From Lachnospiraceae bacterium (GTDB lineage Bacteria > Bacillota > Clostridia > Lachnospirales > Lachnospiraceae), in NCBI GenBank assembly GCA_024403455.1, contig JAKSRR010000004.1, positions 53,298-117,297 of the forward strand: 64,000 nucleotides of DNA, written 5' to 3'. This document shows, in pieces, positions 29,937 through 39,162 of the stretch (positions are counted from its first letter, which is position 1; each line of letters opens with the position of its first letter). A model generated the notes under the pieces. That model did not search any database. It was not told where the DNA came from and saw nothing but the letters and a program-made list of their open reading frames with translations. The translations under genes were made by a program, and so were the position numbers.

Positions 29937-31379
29937 TTAAGGATTATCAGCCACCTGGGAAATAACATTTTTATTAATACGAACAAGGAAAATAACATTC
30001 ATCAGTAAACTCATTAACTCTGCAATGGGGAAACACCACCAAATAGCAGGCAGACCAAAATTCTTTCCTAAAACATAAGCCACCGGAAGTAATACCACTA
30101 ACTGTCTGGAAACGGAAACCATCATACTATAGAAACCATTGCCTAATGCCTGGTATACAGAACCACCAACAATACAGAACCATGCAATCAAATAATGGAT
30201 TCCTATGATACGCAGGGCCGGCTTTCCTAAGATAATAAGGGACGGATCCCCAGTATCAAAGATACGAAGCAGTGGTTCCGGAATCACTTCAAAGGCTATG
30301 AAACCTAGCACCATCAGCAGTAGTCCTACCACCATACTCTTCTTGATAACCTCGTACATACGACTTCTCTTCTGTGCGCCAAAGTTATAAGCAAGAATCG
30401 GTACCAAACCATTATTTAAGCCAAAGAGCGGCATAAAGAAGAAACTCTGCAATTTAAAATACACAGTAAATACGGCTACAGATGCGGGATTAATACCATT
30501 TAACAGTTTATTCATCAGATAGGTCATTACCGATCCAATGGACTGCATAATGATAGTGGGAATACCTACTGCATAAATCCGTCCAATCATTCTACCGTCA
30601 GGACGGAACCCATGGAAGTCAATCTTTATGTCTGGATTCATCTTGAGGTTAAAGATAATTGCCAGAACCCCCGCTACGCACTGTCCAATAACCGTTGCGT
30701 AAGCGGCACCAGCAACTCCCATTTTGAATACAAAAATGAAAATGGGATCCAGAATAATATTAATCAAAGCACCAACAGACTGGGTAACCATGGTAAGAAT
30801 GGTTCGACCGGTTGCCTGCAAGAGACGTTCAAAAATGAACTGGGTATATAAGCCAAAGGAAAATACGCAAACAATTCTTAAATACTGGGTTCCATATAAA
30901 AGGGTAAGCCCTTCCCCACCCTGGGATTTAATTAACACGCCTGGCAAAAACAGTCCAATCAACAAGAATAGAACATAGCTGCAGGCACTTAAAAAGATAC
31001 CATTAGCAGTAGCTTTATTGACAGTATGTGTATCCTTCTCCCCCAGTGCTTTACTGAGAACCGCATTGACACCAACACATGTACCCGCACCAAAGGCAAT
31101 CAGCAATGTCTGGAATGGAAATGCCATACCAAGCGCCGAAATCGCAGCGGTACCAGCATTTTCTCCCACCGATGGATCTGTGATTTTAGCTACAAACACA
31201 CTATCCACAACATTGTAGCAAGCCTGCACCAGCATGGAAATCATCATGGGAAGCGACATGTTTAGCAGTAATTTCCCAATGGGCATCACGCCCATTTTAT
31301 TTTCTTTTTTATCCTCTGACTGTCCGTTTAATACCACCCCTTCCATAGTGGTTTCTTCTTCATATACATCCGTGCTCAT
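29937..31379 (-). CDS. MATE family efflux transporter
   Basis: A 480-aa membrane protein with about 12 helices in two related halves. MATE character is clear from PIGKLLLNMSLPMMISMLVQACYNVVDSVFVAKI, AGVNAVLS-type loops (CVGVNAVLSKALGEKD) and the matching second-half block FGLNNGLVPILAYNFGAQKRSRM. It probably exports drugs or other organic cations using Na+ or H+. The ATG follows GAGGAAGAA. It is 17 nt upstream of the GH9 gene in the same direction. The substrate cannot be inferred. Confidence 0.94.
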   Translation of the reverse strand: MSTDVYEEETTMEGVVLNGQSEDKKENKMGVMPIGKLLLNMSLPMMISMLVQACYNVVDSVFVAKITDPSVGENAGTAAISALGMAFPFQTLLIAFGAGTCVGVNAVLSKALGEKDTHTVNKATANGIFLSACSYVLFLLIGLFLPGVLIKSQGGEGLTLLYGTQYLRIVCVFSFGLYTQFIFERLLQATGRTILTMVTQSVGALINIILDPIFIFVFKMGVAGAAYATVIGQCVAGVLAIIFNLKMNPDIKIDFHGFRPDGRMIGRIYAVGIPTIIMQSIGSVMTYLMNKLLNGINPASVAVFTVYFKLQSFFFMPLFGLNNGLVPILAYNFGAQKRSRMYEVIKKSMVVGLLLMVLGFIAFEVIPEPLLRIFDTGDPSLIILGKPALRIIGIHYLIAWFCIVGGSVYQALGNGFYSMMVSVSRQLVVLLPVAYVLGKNFGLPAIWWCFPIAELMSLLMNVIFLVRINKNVISQVADNP

Positions 31380-31415: not shown

Positions 31416-33071
31416 TTAATCATCATTTTCACTAATCTCTTTTAGCAGCGTATCCCCTATTCGCTGAATAATCTGCTCAATCAGTTCGCTCTGGTTAAAG
31501 AGATTCTTGTCCATATCATGTTCTTTTGCCATTTTACCTGCAAGTTCTGCGGATGGAATCAGATTCTCTACATCCGGGTCTTCCTTGGTGCTGGCTGTAT
31601 TTTTCTCTGTACCTTCCATCATGTTTTCATCGCCAGGTTCTGCGTCTGCAACCAGTGCTTCCACTTTCTTCGCAGCCCTAGCCACTTCATCAACCTGATG
31701 GCTTTCCAAAACCGCCTTCGCATTTTCTTCCTTGGCTTTTTTCTCCTCTGCCATTGCCTTTAAGATCTCACTGGAAGTAGAAACTACCTGGTTACGTCCA
31801 TTTTGCTTACCATAATAGAGACGAGCATCTGCTTCATTTAAGAGCGGGCCATAGTCTGTGTAGGGACCACCATCGGCCACACCAAAGGACATGGTAACGC
31901 GAATCGTCTGTGCTCCATAATGCACTTCGGCTGCTCTAATTTGGTCAAGAATTTCTTCCAAATACGCTGCGGCCTGATCCTGTCCTACCTTATTAAAAGC
32001 AAGTAGGAATTCCTCGCCACCCCATCTGGCAACAAAGCCCTTTCCAGTCATTCCTCGGGTCAGAATCGAGGCTACACGCTTCAATACCTCATCACCGGCA
32101 TCATGGCCATAGGTATCATTTACTTTCTTAAAGAAGTCAATATCGCAGATACATACAGCGCAGCTGGTACCGTACTTCTCTTTCTGCTGCATCATTTTAC
32201 GTAAGCGGGCTCCACCGTAACGACGATTATATAATCCTGTCAGTGGATCACGTTCTACCAAAACACGGATTGCCGCCTGCATATCATTTAAATCTTTACC
32301 AATCTCACCCATTTCATCAGAACGCTTTAATAACGGCGCCGGAAGTTCATTGGACAGTTCTCCCCCCATCATTCCGTGAAGGAATTTCTTCATAGAACGA
32401 ACGTCTCCCAAAAGTCCCGATGTATAGGTCACACTGATAATACTTGCCAAAAGCATACATAGAATTGTAATTAACAAAATAGGAAACAGCGCCGCATTTC
32501 GCTCACTCTTCATATCACGCACAGACTTCGCCGCCGCTACCATACCTACATAAACATCATTATTGTAAATGGGAATATAACAGACGTAGTAGGCATTCCC
32601 TTCAATCTCAACCTCATGGAAGATAGCTGCTTTGTTCTTCTCCATATCGCTGACGATGGCTGGATTCACACCAGAATTAATATAGCGCTCGCCGTGAGAG
32701 TTATTCAGTGTAGTAAGAACACGAACATTCCCAAAAATAACAGAAACCTCCGTTTCGCTTTCTTTCGCCACCGCGTCAATCAGGGCATAATTACCAGTAA
32801 TCTCTGTGTCACCTTTTAAGATTTTATAGGGTTCTGTATCACCAGTGGTCTGGTAAAGTCCCGGCACCATCGTCTCATAAGATGCTGCAACACTTTTCGC
32901 TACACCCTTTAAGGCTTCCTCCAGTTCCTTAACCAGGAATCTCTGATAAGCACTGATGGCTGCAATAGCAAAAATCGCCCCCATCAAAAGCATCGGAACC
33001 AGTGTACGCACAAGTATGCTGGTACGAAGACTTCCTTTTCTCTTTTTCTGATTCGTAACCTTTTTTTCCAT
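31416..33071 (-). CDS. Membrane diguanylate cyclase with Cache-like sensor, HAMP and GGDEF
   Basis: A 551-aa enzyme producing c-di-GMP. Two membrane helices (about 20-42 and 195-218) flank an extracytoplasmic sensor resembling a single Cache domain. A HAMP-like region follows, then the GGDEF domain (about 265-435): RDPLTGLYNRR, CDIDFFKKVNDTYGHDAGDEVL and active-site RWGGEEF. The inhibitory I-site RxxD is missing (TGKG at that position). After the cyclase comes an unusual acidic, alanine-rich tail of more than 100 residues. AAGGGG precedes the ATG. Confidence 0.93.
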   Translation of the reverse strand: MEKKVTNQKKRKGSLRTSILVRTLVPMLLMGAIFAIAAISAYQRFLVKELEEALKGVAKSVAASYETMVPGLYQTTGDTEPYKILKGDTEITGNYALIDAVAKESETEVSVIFGNVRVLTTLNNSHGERYINSGVNPAIVSDMEKNKAAIFHEVEIEGNAYYVCYIPIYNNDVYVGMVAAAKSVRDMKSERNAALFPILLITILCMLLASIISVTYTSGLLGDVRSMKKFLHGMMGGELSNELPAPLLKRSDEMGEIGKDLNDMQAAIRVLVERDPLTGLYNRRYGGARLRKMMQQKEKYGTSCAVCICDIDFFKKVNDTYGHDAGDEVLKRVASILTRGMTGKGFVARWGGEEFLLAFNKVGQDQAAAYLEEILDQIRAAEVHYGAQTIRVTMSFGVADGGPYTDYGPLLNEADARLYYGKQNGRNQVVSTSSEILKAMAEEKKAKEENAKAVLESHQVDEVARAAKKVEALVADAEPGDENMMEGTEKNTASTKEDPDVENLIPSAELAGKMAKEHDMDKNLFNQSELIEQIIQRIGDTLLKEISENDD

Positions 33072-33089: not shown

Positions 33090-34655
33090 TTAAAGATAAA
33101 TATATTTGGGTGATTCCCCTCTTTTCACCACGTCACTGGTGATAATCACTTCTACTAGGTTTTCTTCCCCGGGCGCAAAGAATAATGGTTCCTGCAGGAT
33201 ATCATGTAAAACCGCATTTAGGCCTCTGGCCCCGATGTCCATGCCATCTACTTTCTCGACGATTTCATCAAGGGCCTCGTCCGTAAAGGATAATCGAAGG
33301 TCATCCTCCACTTTAAATTCATTTTTGTACTTCTCCAAAATACTTTCTTTTGGCTCTGTTAGCACTCTTCGAAGCGCCGCCTTGTCCAGCTTATGCAAAA
33401 CCGCCATATTGGATAATCGCCCCGCAAGCTCTGTCTTCATACCATATTCCATCAGATGCTTCATTTTCAGATTATCCTTGGATAGTTCCACATCCTTGTT
33501 CTTCAAGGTCGACAAGCCAAAGGAATCTCCCGCTGTGTTTCTGTCCTTTCGAACAATCTCTTCTAACCCCTCAAAAGCGCCGGCGCAGATAAACAAAATG
33601 TTTTCTGTACTCATTGTGATCATTTCCCTGCCGTGCTCCTTGAGCTGACAAGGCACATCCACTAGCGTCCCTTCAAACATGCCTAAGAGCTGCCCCTGCA
33701 GTTCATCATTGATGTCAGAACCACGACTGCTCTTCCTGGAGGGAATAATTTTGTCAAATTCATCTAAGAAGACAATCCCGCACTCTGCCATATCAATATT
33801 ACGATTGGCTTTCAGGAAAAGGTTTAACAATGCCTCTTCCTTATTACGTCCTTTCCAAGGGGTTGCCACAATACCGCTGAAATCACAGGTTGCTACAGGA
33901 ACCGTCACTAAATCACTGATTCTGCGAATTAACTCCGTCTTTCCACACCCCGATGGTCCTATCATAACCACATTGTTTTTCAAAATCTTATGGTCCGGAT
34001 ACAGCAGACGCAGATAATGATTATAAACAGCAAGGCTCAGCGTTTCCTTCGCTTCATCTTGCCCTATGACATATTCATCTAAATAGGATTTAATTTTTTC
34101 TGGTGTATATTCTTCCAGGAATTTATGGATTTTTTCATCCTCTCCAGAAAGCTGTACGGGACGTCCCTTATGCTTTTTCTTTCCAGAAGAGAATGCTATC
34201 TTCTTCGGACGATTATGAATATACCGAATCCGGCAATAGGTAAGATGTCCTAACATCTTCTCCTGCTCCTGCGGGTCATCTACGTCCATGATGGACCATT
34301 CCATAAAAGCAAAAAAGTCCTCTAAATCCGCATTGGTAAAGATATGTTCCAAATTTCTGCCATCCTGAAAAATTACATCTTCCTGATGCGACATGCTATA
34401 GCGGTAAATAATGGACCAAAAGGGGGATCGAAATCCTGGCTCTTTAAAAGTTGCTCCTGCCAGTTTCATAATGCTGTACAGCGTATGTTCATGCTCCGGT
34501 CTAGCCACCATAATATAGTGCACCAGAAGTCCCGTGTACGCCAAAAGCACCTCCTTGTTTCCAAGGTGCATCTGCTCCTGCTCACATTTTTCCAGGCAGT
34601 GCAAAATATAATCATATCTGTTGTCCGCATTCGTATACTTAAAAACTTCCTTCAT
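33090..34655 (-). CDS. ClpX-like AAA+ ATPase, no zinc finger, IGF loop missing (paralogue 1)
   Basis: A 521-aa protein. Residues 1-190 form a helical N-terminal region of unknown role; no Cys4 zinc finger is present. The AAA+ core matches ClpX: DEYVIGQDEAKETLSLAVYNHYLRL, Walker A MIGPSGCGKTE, Walker B GIVFLDEFDK, then a C-terminal small domain with sensor-2 GARGLNAVL. Pore loop 1 reads TPWKGRN where ClpX has AGYVGED. The ClpP-docking IGF tripeptide is replaced by SFG. It therefore probably remodels or unfolds proteins without ClpP. The gene starts inside the 3' end of paralogue 2 (17-nt overlap), implying coupled translation and perhaps a joint complex. Confidence 0.9.
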   Translation of the reverse strand: MKEVFKYTNADNRYDYILHCLEKCEQEQMHLGNKEVLLAYTGLLVHYIMVARPEHEHTLYSIMKLAGATFKEPGFRSPFWSIIYRYSMSHQEDVIFQDGRNLEHIFTNADLEDFFAFMEWSIMDVDDPQEQEKMLGHLTYCRIRYIHNRPKKIAFSSGKKKHKGRPVQLSGEDEKIHKFLEEYTPEKIKSYLDEYVIGQDEAKETLSLAVYNHYLRLLYPDHKILKNNVVMIGPSGCGKTELIRRISDLVTVPVATCDFSGIVATPWKGRNKEEALLNLFLKANRNIDMAECGIVFLDEFDKIIPSRKSSRGSDINDELQGQLLGMFEGTLVDVPCQLKEHGREMITMSTENILFICAGAFEGLEEIVRKDRNTAGDSFGLSTLKNKDVELSKDNLKMKHLMEYGMKTELAGRLSNMAVLHKLDKAALRRVLTEPKESILEKYKNEFKVEDDLRLSFTDEALDEIVEKVDGMDIGARGLNAVLHDILQEPLFFAPGEENLVEVIITSDVVKRGESPKYIYL

Positions 34656-36141
34656 ACGACCTGCCTTCTTCCTCCTCTATGCAGTAGCAGCCTGCTTCCT
34701 TTTTGCCCCAGACTACATCCTCATCAATCACCACTTCTGAAAGTTTCCCTTTCATGGATGGCGCCTTATATAGCACAGGCTTCATGATTTCCTGCACTTT
34801 TGCAAAGAGGGCACGAGCACCTGTTTTTTCTTTAATGGTCTCTTTTGCAATGGCCTTTAACGCGCCTTCTGTAAAGGTGAGGGATGCGCCACTCCCTAGT
34901 TCCAACTCTACCCCATAACGTTCCACCAGATTGTCTTCTGGCTCGGTTAGGATGCGTAAAAGATCTTCTTCTGTCATGGCATTTAATACTGCAATACTGC
35001 CAATACGTCCGGCAAGTTCGCGCTTCATACCATATGCCATTAGCACTTCATGGGTAATATGCTCCTTAATCACGGAAGCATCCATCTCCTTTTTAGGTAC
35101 CCCAAGAAAGCCAATATTACCAGCGACTTTTCCCTGCTTCATCTGGTCTGCACGAATATAATCTTCAATATCCTGAAATGCTCCCGCTAGTACGAACAGC
35201 ATTCGCGAAGTATTTAATGTCAGGGTATTGTGTCCATCCTTAATTTCCACATCGCCGCCTTCTAACATTGTTAAGAGCTGAGACTGCACATCATCATGCA
35301 TATCCACGCCTCGCTCAGAAATGGCAGGCAACAGCACCTTATCAAACTCGTCCATGAAAATGATACCTTTTTCAGCCAGATCCTTCTTTCCTTCGGCGGC
35401 ATCAAATAATTCAAGCAAAATATCACTCTTATGGCGCCCTCTGAACTGTTCAGCGCCCAAATTAGATACATCCGTAAATACCATAGGAAGTCCCGTAAGT
35501 TCCTTAATCCGGCGCATAATCTCTGTTTTTCCACAGCCGGAAGGGCCAATTAACAGAACAACATCTCCAGCAAAAGGCACTTCGGGATGATGAATCCGCT
35601 TCATATGCCCATAGACTGCTGTACTGATTGCTTTCTTTGCATCGTCCTGTCCAATAATAAAACGGTCAAGATATTCCTTAATAGCCGTAGGTTTTTGTAA
35701 CTCCTGGCTTGCTGCCGCCTTCCTGCGTCTTAATCTGGTATTTCGAATACGATGAATACGACCAATTGCCTTTTGTGCATTCTCGTTTTCAGAGGTATCC
35801 AATGCTTCAGAAAGAATATCCGCTTCTAGAAAGCCAAGCACAAAAAGAGCACGGGTGCCAAAGACATCCGGCTGCTGCGTTACATCCTCTTCCAACTTAT
35901 CTAACAGATGCAGGATGGTTCTTTCTTCCGGCAAAATCATTGGATCTTCCAATACTCTCTCATAGAGAAATACCAGATACTGAATCGCATCCACGTCATC
36001 TTCGTACAGATTCTGGCATACAGCCATAATCCGTTTCATCACATAGGGAAAGACTGGGGACTCTATGCCCGCCTCACTAAACTTTTCTGCTAGAAGCTCA
36101 TCCTTTTCCTGAAGAGCATCCTTCTCAAATATATGGAGCAA
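34639..36141 (-). CDS. ClpX-like AAA+ ATPase, no zinc finger, IGF present (paralogue 2)
   Basis: A 500-aa protein with a helical N-terminus (about 1-160) in place of the ClpX zinc finger. The AAA+ module is DRFIIGQDDAKKAISTAVYGHMKR, Walker A LIGPSGCGKTE, Walker B GIIFMDEFDK, arginine-finger region ELAGRIGSIAVL and sensor-2 TGARALF. Pore loop 1 is EQFRGRH instead of AGYVGED. A candidate ClpP-docking loop is kept (VAGNIGFLG). The start is TTG with AGGAG seven nt upstream. Walker A shares the unusual Cys (GPSGCGKTE) with paralogue 1, suggesting the two are sisters. It is probably a substrate-specialised unfoldase, with ClpP partnership possible but unproven. Confidence 0.9.
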   Translation of the reverse strand: MLHIFEKDALQEKDELLAEKFSEAGIESPVFPYVMKRIMAVCQNLYEDDVDAIQYLVFLYERVLEDPMILPEERTILHLLDKLEEDVTQQPDVFGTRALFVLGFLEADILSEALDTSENENAQKAIGRIHRIRNTRLRRRKAAASQELQKPTAIKEYLDRFIIGQDDAKKAISTAVYGHMKRIHHPEVPFAGDVVLLIGPSGCGKTEIMRRIKELTGLPMVFTDVSNLGAEQFRGRHKSDILLELFDAAEGKKDLAEKGIIFMDEFDKVLLPAISERGVDMHDDVQSQLLTMLEGGDVEIKDGHNTLTLNTSRMLFVLAGAFQDIEDYIRADQMKQGKVAGNIGFLGVPKKEMDASVIKEHITHEVLMAYGMKRELAGRIGSIAVLNAMTEEDLLRILTEPEDNLVERYGVELELGSGASLTFTEGALKAIAKETIKEKTGARALFAKVQEIMKPVLYKAPSMKGKLSEVVIDEDVVWGKKEAGCYCIEEEEGRSYEGSF

Positions 36142-37297
36142 GCGCTTTCTCCTTACAAAAATCCTTCTTATTTATTTTATCACATTTCCACGGTTCTAAA
36201 AATGTTTTCAATGTGTCCTCTGGTTAACCGTAAAATTCTTTCGTTGACTGCTCTAGAATAGGCATTTTTCTAGCAGGATTCTACTTTCTGTCTCTTCTCT
36301 ATAATTATGTTATGTAAACCACATATGTAGCAATCTAGAAACAGGAGATAATTCAAGAAATTGCGTGTTTGTAAATCTATATTTGATTTTTCGCACTGTT
36401 TTTGGCGTCTTGTTGCGTCGCCACTTAAAAATCGGATTATTCATGAAAATGACTGTTTTAGTCATACACTCCTATTATTTAATTTATCGCATTTTCTACC
36501 ACTCTATACTTCCGATTACTCTGCTCTGTTATTCATCTCCAGCAGCACGAAAATTCGTCTTATACAATGTCATGATACTTCCTGATCATATTCAGAAAAA
36601 TCAAATTATTCCGTCTCGCTACCTTATCCTAAAAATACGATTTGGTTTACATAATATTAAAAAAACTGTAGTTATCCACAATTTATGTGAAACTATCCAC
36701 CTGCAATTTGGTTTACATAATATAATTTTCTTCATTTTTCAATTTGGTTTACATAATATTTTATTCCAATTTTAGTTTACATAATATCTAGAAAATACTC
36801 TGGAAATAATTATTGACTATGGAGATATTGATATTTTCGTTTTTGATCTATTGGGGGCCAGTTTTACCCCCTGCATGTTTATCCGTCATTTCTGTCAATT
36901 TATTAGTTCAATTTTCTTTCAATTCTTATGCTGCGATTATCCCACTCATTTTTCCATTTTTTTCGTGTAATTTAAGCATTGACAATAATTTTGTCACACC
37001 ATTCGTCATTATTTTTTCGTTTTCTTATCATTTCGACATACTTTCTATAAACAAAACGCATTTTTGCGAAATGATGGAAATCCTTCACGAAACAGTCCGT
37101 TATATATTCGTATTAAATTTGAATTGTTATTGTTAACATAATATTTTTCATTATTTTAACCACGCCTATATGTTGTATAAATTGTCTATATTTTTCATCA
37201 ATTTATTTTGGTTTACATAATGTCATATTTTGTAATACTTTATTTTTAGTGTGGATACTGTGGAAAACTCTCAAAAAAAAGGGAGAAAGAGGGAAAT
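36142..37297. other. AT-rich non-coding region with repeats and DnaA-box-like sites
   Basis: No convincing gene lies in these 1,156 nt on either strand. Base composition is much richer in A and T than neighbouring genes. Contents: the promoter region of the AAA+ pair on the minus strand; a TATAAT on the plus strand at 36300-36305; one inverted and five direct GGTTTACATAAT-type repeats; a perfect TTATCCACA at 36672-36680 with related sites nearby and at 37250-37268; a GGGGG/CCCCC hairpin at 36852-36872. Open frames such as 36365-36775 are largely translations of the repeats. Confidence 0.75.
36307..37223. repeat. Dispersed TTTGGTTTACATAATAT repeats (six copies)
   Basis: Direct copies lie at 36641-36657, 36707-36723, 36743-36759, 36771-36787 (one mismatch) and 37207-37223. 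One inverted copy is at 36307-36323 (ATGTTATGTAAACCACA). Spacing is irregular (66, 36, 28, 436 nt), unlike CRISPR or plasmid iterons. The outermost copies are inverted relative to each other, as the ends of a small mobile element would be. Related TTTACATAA sequences occur at 49085 (malQ promoter) and 43190. Confidence 0.85.
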
Positions 37298-37477
37298 ATG
37301 AAATTTATTACAGAAAAAAGCAGCAAAAAAAGAGAGGAAAGAAATAAAAGCAATGAAAAATCTTATAAAAAAAGTAGGAAGATCAATGTTGCACAGAAAT
37401 ATGATTATTTTGATGAGTCTTTATTCTCACAGAAATTATCTCCAGATGAAAGTTTTCAAAAGGATTCTGGCATATAA
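37298..37477 (+). CDS. Small lysine-rich ORF, 59 aa
   Basis: ATG at 37298 follows an AGAGGG site five nt upstream and opens 59 codons (MKFITEKSSKKREERNKSNEKSYKKSRKINV...), ending KDSGI-stop at 37475-37477. The N-terminal half is strongly basic (Lys/Arg/Ser). The C-terminal half is acidic and aromatic (YDYFDESLFSQKLSPDE). A hairpin with a T tail follows at once. The product is unlike any family I know and could be a small nucleic-acid- or protein-binding peptide. It is opposite in direction to its neighbours and lies just after the repeat region. Coding status is uncertain. Confidence 0.5.
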   Translation: MKFITEKSSKKREERNKSNEKSYKKSRKINVAQKYDYFDESLFSQKLSPDESFQKDSGI

Positions 37478-37516
37478 AAAAGGCACTCAGAAACTTCTGA
37501 ATGCCTCTCGTTTTAT
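37475..37516. terminator. Bidirectional terminator between clpX and the small ORF
   Basis: AGGCA(C)TCAGAA and TTCTGA(A)TGCCT form a 10-11-bp stem (37481-37506). On the minus strand it ends in TTTTTTAT and can stop clpX transcription about 110 nt after its stop codon. On the plus strand it is followed by CTCGTTTTATT and can stop the 59-aa ORF. Confidence 0.85.
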
Positions 37517-37614
37517 TACTTTCTCATGTTTTGCGGGTCATGAAGTCATTTGCAGGTTCTTATGAACAAGTTCATCAAGCCTTCAGGGCTTTAGCCCCTA
37601 ACATCACCAAATCT

Positions 37615-39162
37615 TTATCCTCTCATCTCAATAACCGGCCCACCTGAGCCTTCAATGTAGGCTTTTGTAATCGTCACGGTGCCGATATTCTTATCTTTGG
37701 GGATTTCATACATAATATCCAGCATAAATTTGTCTATGATTGCTCTCAAAGCTCTTGCTCCCGTCTCCTCTTGGCTGGCTTTTTCTGCAATCGCTTCTAA
37801 ACAATCCTCCGAAAATACCAATCTTACTTCATCTAACTCGAGAAGCTTCTGATATTGCTTCAGAATTGCATTTTTAGGCTCCGAAAGGATCTGTACATAC
37901 ATATCCTTTGTAAGAGACTCTAGCGTAATCACCATAGGAAGTCGGCCAATAAACTCTGGAATCATACCAAATTTGCGAATATCCTCCGTTTTGACCTGTG
38001 CCAAAACATTCTCTTTATCAAATTTATCTTTGAGTTCTGCCGCGAAGCCAATGGTATTTTGTTTATTAAGTCTCTTTTTAATTATTTCATCAAGTCCAGC
38101 AAATGCACCGGCGCAGATAAACAAAATATTGCTTGTATTCACGATTGTTGTGGGCACCATAGCATTTTTAGATGAGGAACCAATAGGCACTTCTATGTCC
38201 GCTCCTTCTAGTAGTTTTAACATTCCCTGCTGAACCGATTCACCACTGACATCGCGAGTATTGCTATTTGCCTTCTTGGCTAACTTGTCTATCTCATCAA
38301 TGAAGATAATACCCTGCTCTGCTTTATTAACATCATTATCTGCTGCTGCCAGAAGTTTTGATACAACACTTTCGATATCATCACCAATATAACCAGCTTC
38401 CGTCAGGCTGGTGGCATCTGTAATCGCCAAGGGCACATTCAAAATCTTTGCCAATGTACGCACCAGATAGGTCTTTCCGGAACCCGTAGGTCCTATCATC
38501 AGCATATTAGACTTTTCGATTTCGATATCTTCCTGCGTACCAGTAGCCACACGCTTATAATGATTATATACCGCAACAGAAATCGCCTTTTTAGCCATGT
38601 CCTGTCCAATGACATATTCATCCAACTTGGCTCTGATTTCATGGGGTGCCGGAATATCTTTCAGCTCAATCAGGGGCTTATACTCCCCTTTCTTCTTTTT
38701 CTTAACCTTACGGCTGCCGGAAAAACCGCCACCTAATAAATCATTCATGTTTAGGAAGCTAAAGCGAGGCATGCCACCCATGACATTTTTCACATTGTCA
38801 TCTTTAGACTTGTCATCATCCTTCTTATCTTCTTTTGTGGGCTGATCTTCTGAATCTGTGTCGCCGCTCTCTACAACGCTATCTGCGTCCTTTTTTTCTT
38901 CCGTCTGGCTTGCCTCTGGCTTAGGCTGTCCTGGCATAGCAAACCCAAAAGGCATTCCAAAACCTCCCATAGGAGGCATCTCACCATTCATATAGGGGCC
39001 TAAATCCATGGCATTCACCATGTCCATTGTCTTCTGCATACAGTCATTGCAAATCCAAGTATTCCCTGGCATCTTTAACATTTTACCAGCAACAGATTCT
39101 GATCTTCTGCATACAGAACAGATACTTTCATATCCATTGTCATTCTGATTGTAATCTTCCAT
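37615..39162 (-). CDS. clpX: ATP-dependent Clp protease ATP-binding subunit ClpX with extended acidic linker
   Basis: A 515-aa AAA+ unfoldase, about 90 residues longer than usual ClpX. The N-terminal zinc finger uses C15, C18, C38, C41 (ICSVC...WICNDC). It is followed by a Gly/Met/Pro-rich then acidic Asp/Lys/Glu-rich insertion (about 60-150). The ATPase core is canonical: DEYVIGQDMAKKAISVAVYNHYKR, Walker A IGPTGSGKTYL, pore loop 1 EAGYIGDDIE, Walker B GIIFIDEIDK, TRDVSGESVQQGMLKLLEG, the ClpP-docking TIGF, EFIGRLP and TGARALR. No clpP or tig is adjacent, so this may be a second, non-housekeeping ClpX. Two divergent paralogues lie 1.5 kb downstream in the same direction. Confidence 0.93.
   Translation of the reverse strand: MEDYNQNDNGYESICSVCRRSESVAGKMLKMPGNTWICNDCMQKTMDMVNAMDLGPYMNGEMPPMGGFGMPFGFAMPGQPKPEASQTEEKKDADSVVESGDTDSEDQPTKEDKKDDDKSKDDNVKNVMGGMPRFSFLNMNDLLGGGFSGSRKVKKKKKGEYKPLIELKDIPAPHEIRAKLDEYVIGQDMAKKAISVAVYNHYKRVATGTQEDIEIEKSNMLMIGPTGSGKTYLVRTLAKILNVPLAITDATSLTEAGYIGDDIESVVSKLLAAADNDVNKAEQGIIFIDEIDKLAKKANSNTRDVSGESVQQGMLKLLEGADIEVPIGSSSKNAMVPTTIVNTSNILFICAGAFAGLDEIIKKRLNKQNTIGFAAELKDKFDKENVLAQVKTEDIRKFGMIPEFIGRLPMVITLESLTKDMYVQILSEPKNAILKQYQKLLELDEVRLVFSEDCLEAIAEKASQEETGARALRAIIDKFMLDIMYEIPKDKNIGTVTITKAYIEGSGGPVIEMRG

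Follow-up and report, generated by a model that had tools for sequence, protein, structure and literature searches.

A conserved pair of adjacent ClpX-derived ATPases with new N-terminal domains in the Lachnospiraceae

ClpX is an unfoldase that is usually taken to be one housekeeping motor, a homohexamer. A stretch of 64,000 nucleotides (nt) from a Lachnospiraceae bacterium (assembly GCA_024403455.1, contig JAKSRR010000004.1, positions 53,298 to 117,297 of the forward strand; hereafter "the window") encodes three ClpX-type proteins, which raises the question of what the additional copies are for and whether they work together. The three genes, all on the minus strand, are named here A and B, which overlap and lack a zinc finger, and ClpX2, which has one (Table 1). 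The first-pass annotation, made from the sequence alone, had interpreted them as a specialised remodelling or proteolysis module that perhaps forms mixed hexamers. This interpretation is partly supported by the present analysis, and its core, a specialised module, stands: A and B are a selected, ClpX-derived pair with new N-terminal domains. An extra ClpX without a zinc finger was already known.

The coordinates that had been given for the three open reading frames (ORFs), the 17-nt overlap of A and B (34639-34655) and the GPSGCGKTE motif in each of these two were all confirmed. In an alignment, the TTG start of A falls on the first residue of the orthologous proteins, and AAGGAG stands just 5' of it. 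Pfam detects AAA_2 and ClpB_D2-small in A, B and ClpX2; in the AAA+ core, A and B are 40% identical to each other and 34-35% identical to ClpX2. Both miss the ClpX equivalog cut-off (NCBIfam NF003745/TIGR00382, 359 bits), with 233.5 bits for A and 282.4 bits for B. The Walker A, Walker B, arginine-finger and sensor-2 motifs are complete in 32/32 A and in 32/32 full-length B proteins; the zinc finger, the GYVG loop and the RKH motif were each found in 0/32 A and 0/32 B, and for the two loops an alignment with Escherichia coli ClpX was made as well. The pore-1 loop reads Q[FY]RGR in 30/35 A and P[WYF][KR]GR in 33/35 B. An IGF-type ClpP-docking loop ([IMLF]G[FY]) is present in 35/35 A and 29/35 B, the B proteins without it being the window's own and those of loci L074, L092, L174, L175 and L178. 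These motif and docking-loop counts leave out the B of L101, which is interrupted in the assembly, and the A of L083, a gene missed by the ORF caller at a place where a genome search with A does match. Judged by their sequences, A and B are thus ClpX-type AAA+ ATPases in the broad sense and not ClpX proper.

The helical N-termini of 160-190 residues that had been claimed for the two proteins are also predicted by AlphaFold2, at about 146 (A) and 182 (B) residues, each followed by a ClpX-like core (mean predicted local distance difference test score 81.8 for A and 82.2 for B). In a fold comparison with the PDB, ClpX chains make up all 50 matches listed for the A model and, likewise, for the B model. 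When a B profile was compared with PDB sequences, the matches listed all start at residue 173 or later. Profile comparison recovers the kinship of the A and B cores at 100% but finds none between their N-domains (probability 1.3%, E 0.04). Profiles of the N-domains, made without L074 and L092 and with E-values scaled to ten sequences, also reach diverged pairs. That of A reaches L178 (2.6e-10), L074 (1.5e-6), L092 (1.9e-5) and L175 (1.6e-4) and fails on L174 (0.065), while that of B reaches L074 (6.2e-21), L092 (8e-13), L178 (2e-4) and L174 (0.0012), fails on the B of L175 (0.073), and makes weak contact also with the A of L175 (0.0037) and of L092 (0.0084).

How far does the pair extend beyond the window? 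With A as the query, 31 of the 35 genomes of the genus set match at E 1e-57 or better, and in a family draw of one genome per genus 0/297 genomes of other genera do so, the only matches being the own genome (82% complete, in 35 contigs) and one genus-mate. Of the 31 genus loci in which both were called, 30 have A and B at a spacing between -89 and +26 nt; the exception is L101 with its interrupted B. Gene order, whose loss in all relatives the first-pass annotation had named as one refutation, is kept in the genus. Two genomes, G204 and G208, have a second pair; the diverged second pair of G204 (L092, 9684-12477) lies directly 3' of a phage-integrase-type (tyrosine) recombinase gene. Two A-type peptide patterns, run against 84,980 species genomes, hit 48 loci; 35 of these are at >=38% identity to A, and the remaining 13 (25-34%) were not counted as A. 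The 35 are titled Lachnospiraceae (one Butyrivibrio), with one titled only Bacillota, and many are from the rumen. Three of them are distant pairs, all adjacent: L174 (in the order B-A), L175 (8981-12542) and L178 (8794-12394). The 3' neighbours of the latter two are proteins without a Pfam match and Sel1-repeat proteins, not GGDEF or MATE genes.

As a separate observation, ATPases about 30% identical to A, with no adjoining B, occur in Clostridia and Lachnospiraceae records (L180, 5932-7116; L181, 2550-3557; L182, 1061-2356; L183, 5920-7047; L184, 3-1142; L185, 4990-6858), and the two that were inspected show APSG[CS]GKTE and GFKG-type pore loops. A class-wide search with B, at a loose threshold and with three candidates scored per genome, matched 143/391 genomes. 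No B-like protein outside the own genome is among the matches listed, because all of these start at B residue 165 or later and lie in frames of 405-473 amino acids (aa). The best ClpX matches across the class are 39-41% identical to B, about as close as A.

The origin of the pair was approached by three trees. The quick tree used 12 of 30 ClpX loci, selected by a Walker A pattern filter, and the same ClpX set was kept in the two later trees; both the quick and the outgroup-free tree started from 14 A and 14 B rows. Long-branched L092 was removed from the outgroup-free and the HslU-rooted tree and L074 from the outgroup-free tree; five ClpX2 rows were thinned out of the HslU-rooted tree. Since HslU was found in 0/31 genomes of the order at E 1e-100, that of E. 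coli served as outgroup. In the rooted tree, A and B together form one clade (support 100/99), within which A (100/99) and B (88/87) separate, and each distant pair places one member in the A clade and the other in the B clade; ClpX2 joins the long ClpX of other genera, apart from the A+B clade. Support for B is 65% in the quick tree, and the outgroup-free tree without the long rows gives 100/99 for A and 98/96 for B. The A and B trees are largely parallel. A and B stem from an old duplication.

Both genes are under purifying selection: the pairwise ratio of non-synonymous to synonymous substitution rates (dN/dS) is 0.041-0.100 for A and 0.051-0.118 for B (closest 14 of 18 A pairs and 14 of 15 B pairs). 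Neutral decay, with disrupted ATPase sites, had been named in the first-pass annotation as the finding that would count against a functional module; it is ruled out by the complete ATPase motifs and the low dN/dS (0.04-0.12). A viral origin was also discarded: among the 80 viral loci listed in a scan with the B alignment, identity is at most 38%, bar one piece of 38 residues at 49%, and none of the 80 reaches the B N-domain.

A candidate partner, absent from the window, was missed in the first-pass annotation. In 21 of 32 neighbourhoods, read from 30 relatives, the place directly upstream of A is occupied by the gene for a surface protein of 599-1280 aa with a conserved end segment (one copy, of 232 aa, is cut at a contig end); examples are L073 (5749-8100), L081 (4646-7798) and L098 (169-2115). 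A hydrophobic segment lies about 95-113 residues before the protein's end in 19/20 and another near the start in 15/20; from these positions, it is predicted to cross the membrane once, with one part outside and a tail of about 75 residues in the cytosol. Flg_new (Listeria-Bacteroides repeat) occurs in 6/7 surface proteins scanned, one of them over the Pfam cut-off; no Pfam model covers the tail in the proteins scanned. The tail is found in 28/35 genus genomes, namely in 27/31 with A/B and 1/4 without (Fisher p 0.019, not corrected for descent). In L090 (11831-15053), the place directly upstream of A is taken by a clostripain-family peptidase (C11), with an ion-channel protein before that.

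Based on these findings, we read A and B as subunits that together make up a dedicated ClpX-type unfoldase, with a mixed hexamer as its likeliest form, and put the probability of this reading at roughly 0.45. Co-occurrence, the parallel trees and a docking loop lost only in B point to the mixed ring, which the first-pass annotation had suggested and which is plausible; a loop kept in 35/35 A and lost in 6/35 B suits a ring docked via A. Once A and B had assembled into one hexameric ring, their N-domains would pick a small set of clients. The IGF-type loop of A would dock the ring on the housekeeping ClpP, a partnership suggested by this loop together with the presence of ClpP, and the docked ring would unfold its clients, most of which would, because of this docking, be degraded. 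In most species, the ring would work at the membrane, with the cytosolic tail of the surface protein encoded nearby as its target or as its route, a recruitment to which the gene neighbourhood alone points. The complete picture of a ClpX-derived heteromeric ring, in which A docks ClpP, A and B contribute two recognition domains and the tail of the surface protein recruits the assembly, is improbable as a whole.

Several observations weigh against the reading as a mixed, membrane-recruited ring. Since neither A nor B lacks any part of its active site, each could form a ring of its own, and distant pairs have different neighbours. The rooted tree hangs on one long-branch outgroup, HslU, and the program warns of false joins. 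The surface gene is absent from 4/31 pair genomes, the window's genome among them. Five others have it about 9-15 kb (kilobases) upstream on the same strand, and one has it on another contig. The tail occurs also in 16/297 family genomes of other genera, and genome G198 has the order ClpX2, surface protein, GGDEF, MATE without A/B. In 15 tail loci read outside the genus, ClpX2 is within the stretch in two and A/B in none, and two such loci, partly scanned, have as neighbours an aminotransferase, a methyltransferase, Hsp33, an NAD synthase or a small exporter. Because of G198 and these occurrences outside the genus, the surface protein is probably the older resident, and the evidence is suggestive of a link to A/B that is not exclusive. 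The gap upstream of A in the window holds no remnant of the surface gene, and no copy turned up in the own genome at its completeness of 82%.

Among the alternatives, a remodelling chaperone that works without ClpP and pulls out or rearranges an envelope protein is a doubtful but serious possibility. It would account for the loss of RKH and GYVG from both A and B, for the altered docking loop in 6/35 B and for the linkage to a membrane protein gene; however, the IGF-type loop in 35/35 A speaks against it. Two separate homohexameric unfoldases, co-transcribed for dosage and each with its own N-domain and clients, seem unlikely: the complete Walker, arginine-finger and sensor-2 motifs, the unrelated N-domains and the fact that B is about as close to the best class ClpX (39-41% identity) as to A would fit, but A and B are never apart and always adjacent in the loci read, and in six pairs only B has lost the docking loop. 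That the pair was acquired as cargo and has its neighbours by accident, e.g., as stress- or phage-related genes that came to rest here, is distinctly unlikely, since position and order are stable across the genus under purifying selection and none of the 80 viral loci listed matches the B N-domain, despite the patchy occurrence beyond the genus, the recombinase beside the second pair of G204, the Sel1/TPR and unassigned genes near distant pairs, the G198 locus without A/B and the PADLOC matches to DolB (40 and 45 bits, though ClpX2 also has 34).

How does the proposed two-subunit unfoldase compare with known systems? With ClpX, the partner of ClpP, A and B share the AAA+ core fold and the motor motifs, and A also the IGF-type docking loop; they differ by scores under the cut-off, by the loss of the zinc finger, GYVG and RKH, by their new N-domains and by being paired. 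From the long zinc-finger ClpX of the family, with which ClpX2 belongs, they are set apart as a separate clade and by having lost both the zinc finger and the GYIG loop. Myxococcus xanthus has, in ClpX3, an extra ClpX that lacks both the RKH motif and the zinc-finger N-domain (PMC11423568); it is a lone gene simply without the N-domain, whereas the present case involves two genes, and both products have an N-domain that is new. In the literature searches made here, no description of an obligate ClpX-derived pair was found, and among the titles listed only the M. xanthus work concerns several ClpX copies per bacterium.

The third ClpX-type gene was examined in the same way. The Cys4 zinc finger and the long acidic insertion described for ClpX2 were confirmed, and zf-C4_ClpX (E 4.2e-8) is found only in this one of the three proteins; with 537.3 bits, ClpX2 is over the equivalog cut-off. 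Among 20 full-length ClpX2 of the genus, the window's included, the zinc finger and a GYVG/GYIG loop are present in 20/20 and the RKH motif in 0/20. ClpX2 was ruled out as the housekeeping copy: the canonical clpX of the own genome, with zinc finger and RKH motif, sits on contig C5 beside clpP and tig (the latter named from its sequence). ClpX2 is, therefore, an additional paralogue, a point missed in the first-pass annotation as was its lack of the RKH loop, and the own genome has four ClpX-type genes: A, B, ClpX2 and the clpX of contig C5. In an order-wide draw, a second ClpX-type match accompanies the first in 21/21 other genomes of the same family, and one of the two lies in a frame of 463-547 aa. 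Of 20 second copies read in same-family genomes, eight have an EpsE-like gene, as in the window, nearby; the surface protein is near 0/20 in the stretches read. The own genome further encodes a second ClpP-type protein of 187 aa (L010, 1495-2058, contig C8), whose gene adjoins one read as a DnaB/RecA-type ATPase and possibly belongs to a mobile element.

Table 1. Features of the locus, in window coordinates.
Feature	Position	Strand	Basis
MATE-like transporter gene (named by sequence reading)	29937..31379	-	homologue in 18/32 neighbourhoods, by eye
GGDEF diguanylate cyclase with sCache domain, downstream neighbour	31416..33071	-	Pfam
B: ClpX-like AAA+ ATPase, 521 aa, no zinc finger	33090..34655	-	ORF, motifs
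B N-terminal helical domain, residues 1-182 (predicted)	34110..34655	-	AlphaFold2 model
A: ClpX-like AAA+ ATPase, 500 aa, TTG start, no zinc finger	34639..36141	-	ORF, motifs, orthologues
A N-terminal helical domain, residues 1-146 (predicted)	35704..36141	-	AlphaFold2 model
AT-rich gap, place of the surface gene in most relatives; holds TTATGTAAACC array	36142..37614	.	motif search
ClpX2: ClpX paralogue, zinc finger, acidic insert, GYIG pore loop, IGF loop, no RKH loop	37615..39162	-	

The remaining neighbours add context. In 28/30 loci, B and the GGDEF gene 3' of it share a strand and lie no more than 185 nt apart, and ClpX2 is in 20/32 stretches. A product of this diguanylate cyclase region had been considered as a substrate or control of the unfoldases; the cyclase is indeed a true neighbour, but its presence in G198 without A/B marks it as part of the locus and not of the pair. 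The 59-aa ORF, proposed for the same role, was rejected: among the loci compared, it matches only window copies, plus four stretches of 24 residues at E 0.27-0.34, none of them a credible homologue. A PADLOC assignment to DolB was likewise dismissed because the matches overlap the AAA+ core only and ClpX2 matches as well.

The gap between A and ClpX2 contains, at 36307-37223, an array of the 11-bp (base pair) motif TTATGTAAACC, mostly in the gene direction. With one mismatch allowed, and with the interval in relatives taken from ClpX2 to the surface gene (or A), 21 loci yielded, in 35.0 kb of intervals, 43 copies on the same strand and 13 on the opposite one, versus 8 in 368.8 kb outside, compared with 0 and 3 for the reversed motif; 15/21 loci have it, and its flanks show no conservation across loci. 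A longer form has 19 copies in the own genome at up to two mismatches, against 0 for the control. We take the motif to resemble the XerD half of dif sites or, alternatively, a regulator site. An origin-like function of the gap was rejected: it holds one TTATCCACA, and intervals of relatives hold 0 in 33.5 kb versus 8 in 350 kb outside. A promoter and terminator scan gave no excess over shuffles.

The pair offers a natural experiment on two questions: by what route an unfoldase acquires other clients, and whether rings of the ClpX type can be mixed. Three sequenced isolates among the 35 A-type loci, NK4A179, XPB1003 and AB2028, carry the pair and make it open to experiment, with the linked surface protein as a concrete candidate anchor or client. 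Eukaryotic Pex1 and Pex6, with two AAA+ domains per chain, offer a parallel. These two paralogous AAA+ subunits form one ring, which membrane-anchored Pex15 recruits by binding the N-domains (PMC5762779); the analogy is a functional one only, with the mixed ring of A and B and its recruitment as predictions. If the proposed heteromeric, tail-recruited ring were true, it would be a bacterial counterpart, in its logic, of Pex1/Pex6-Pex15, one that, next to an exopolysaccharide locus, links a signal from outside to protein unfolding and proteolysis.

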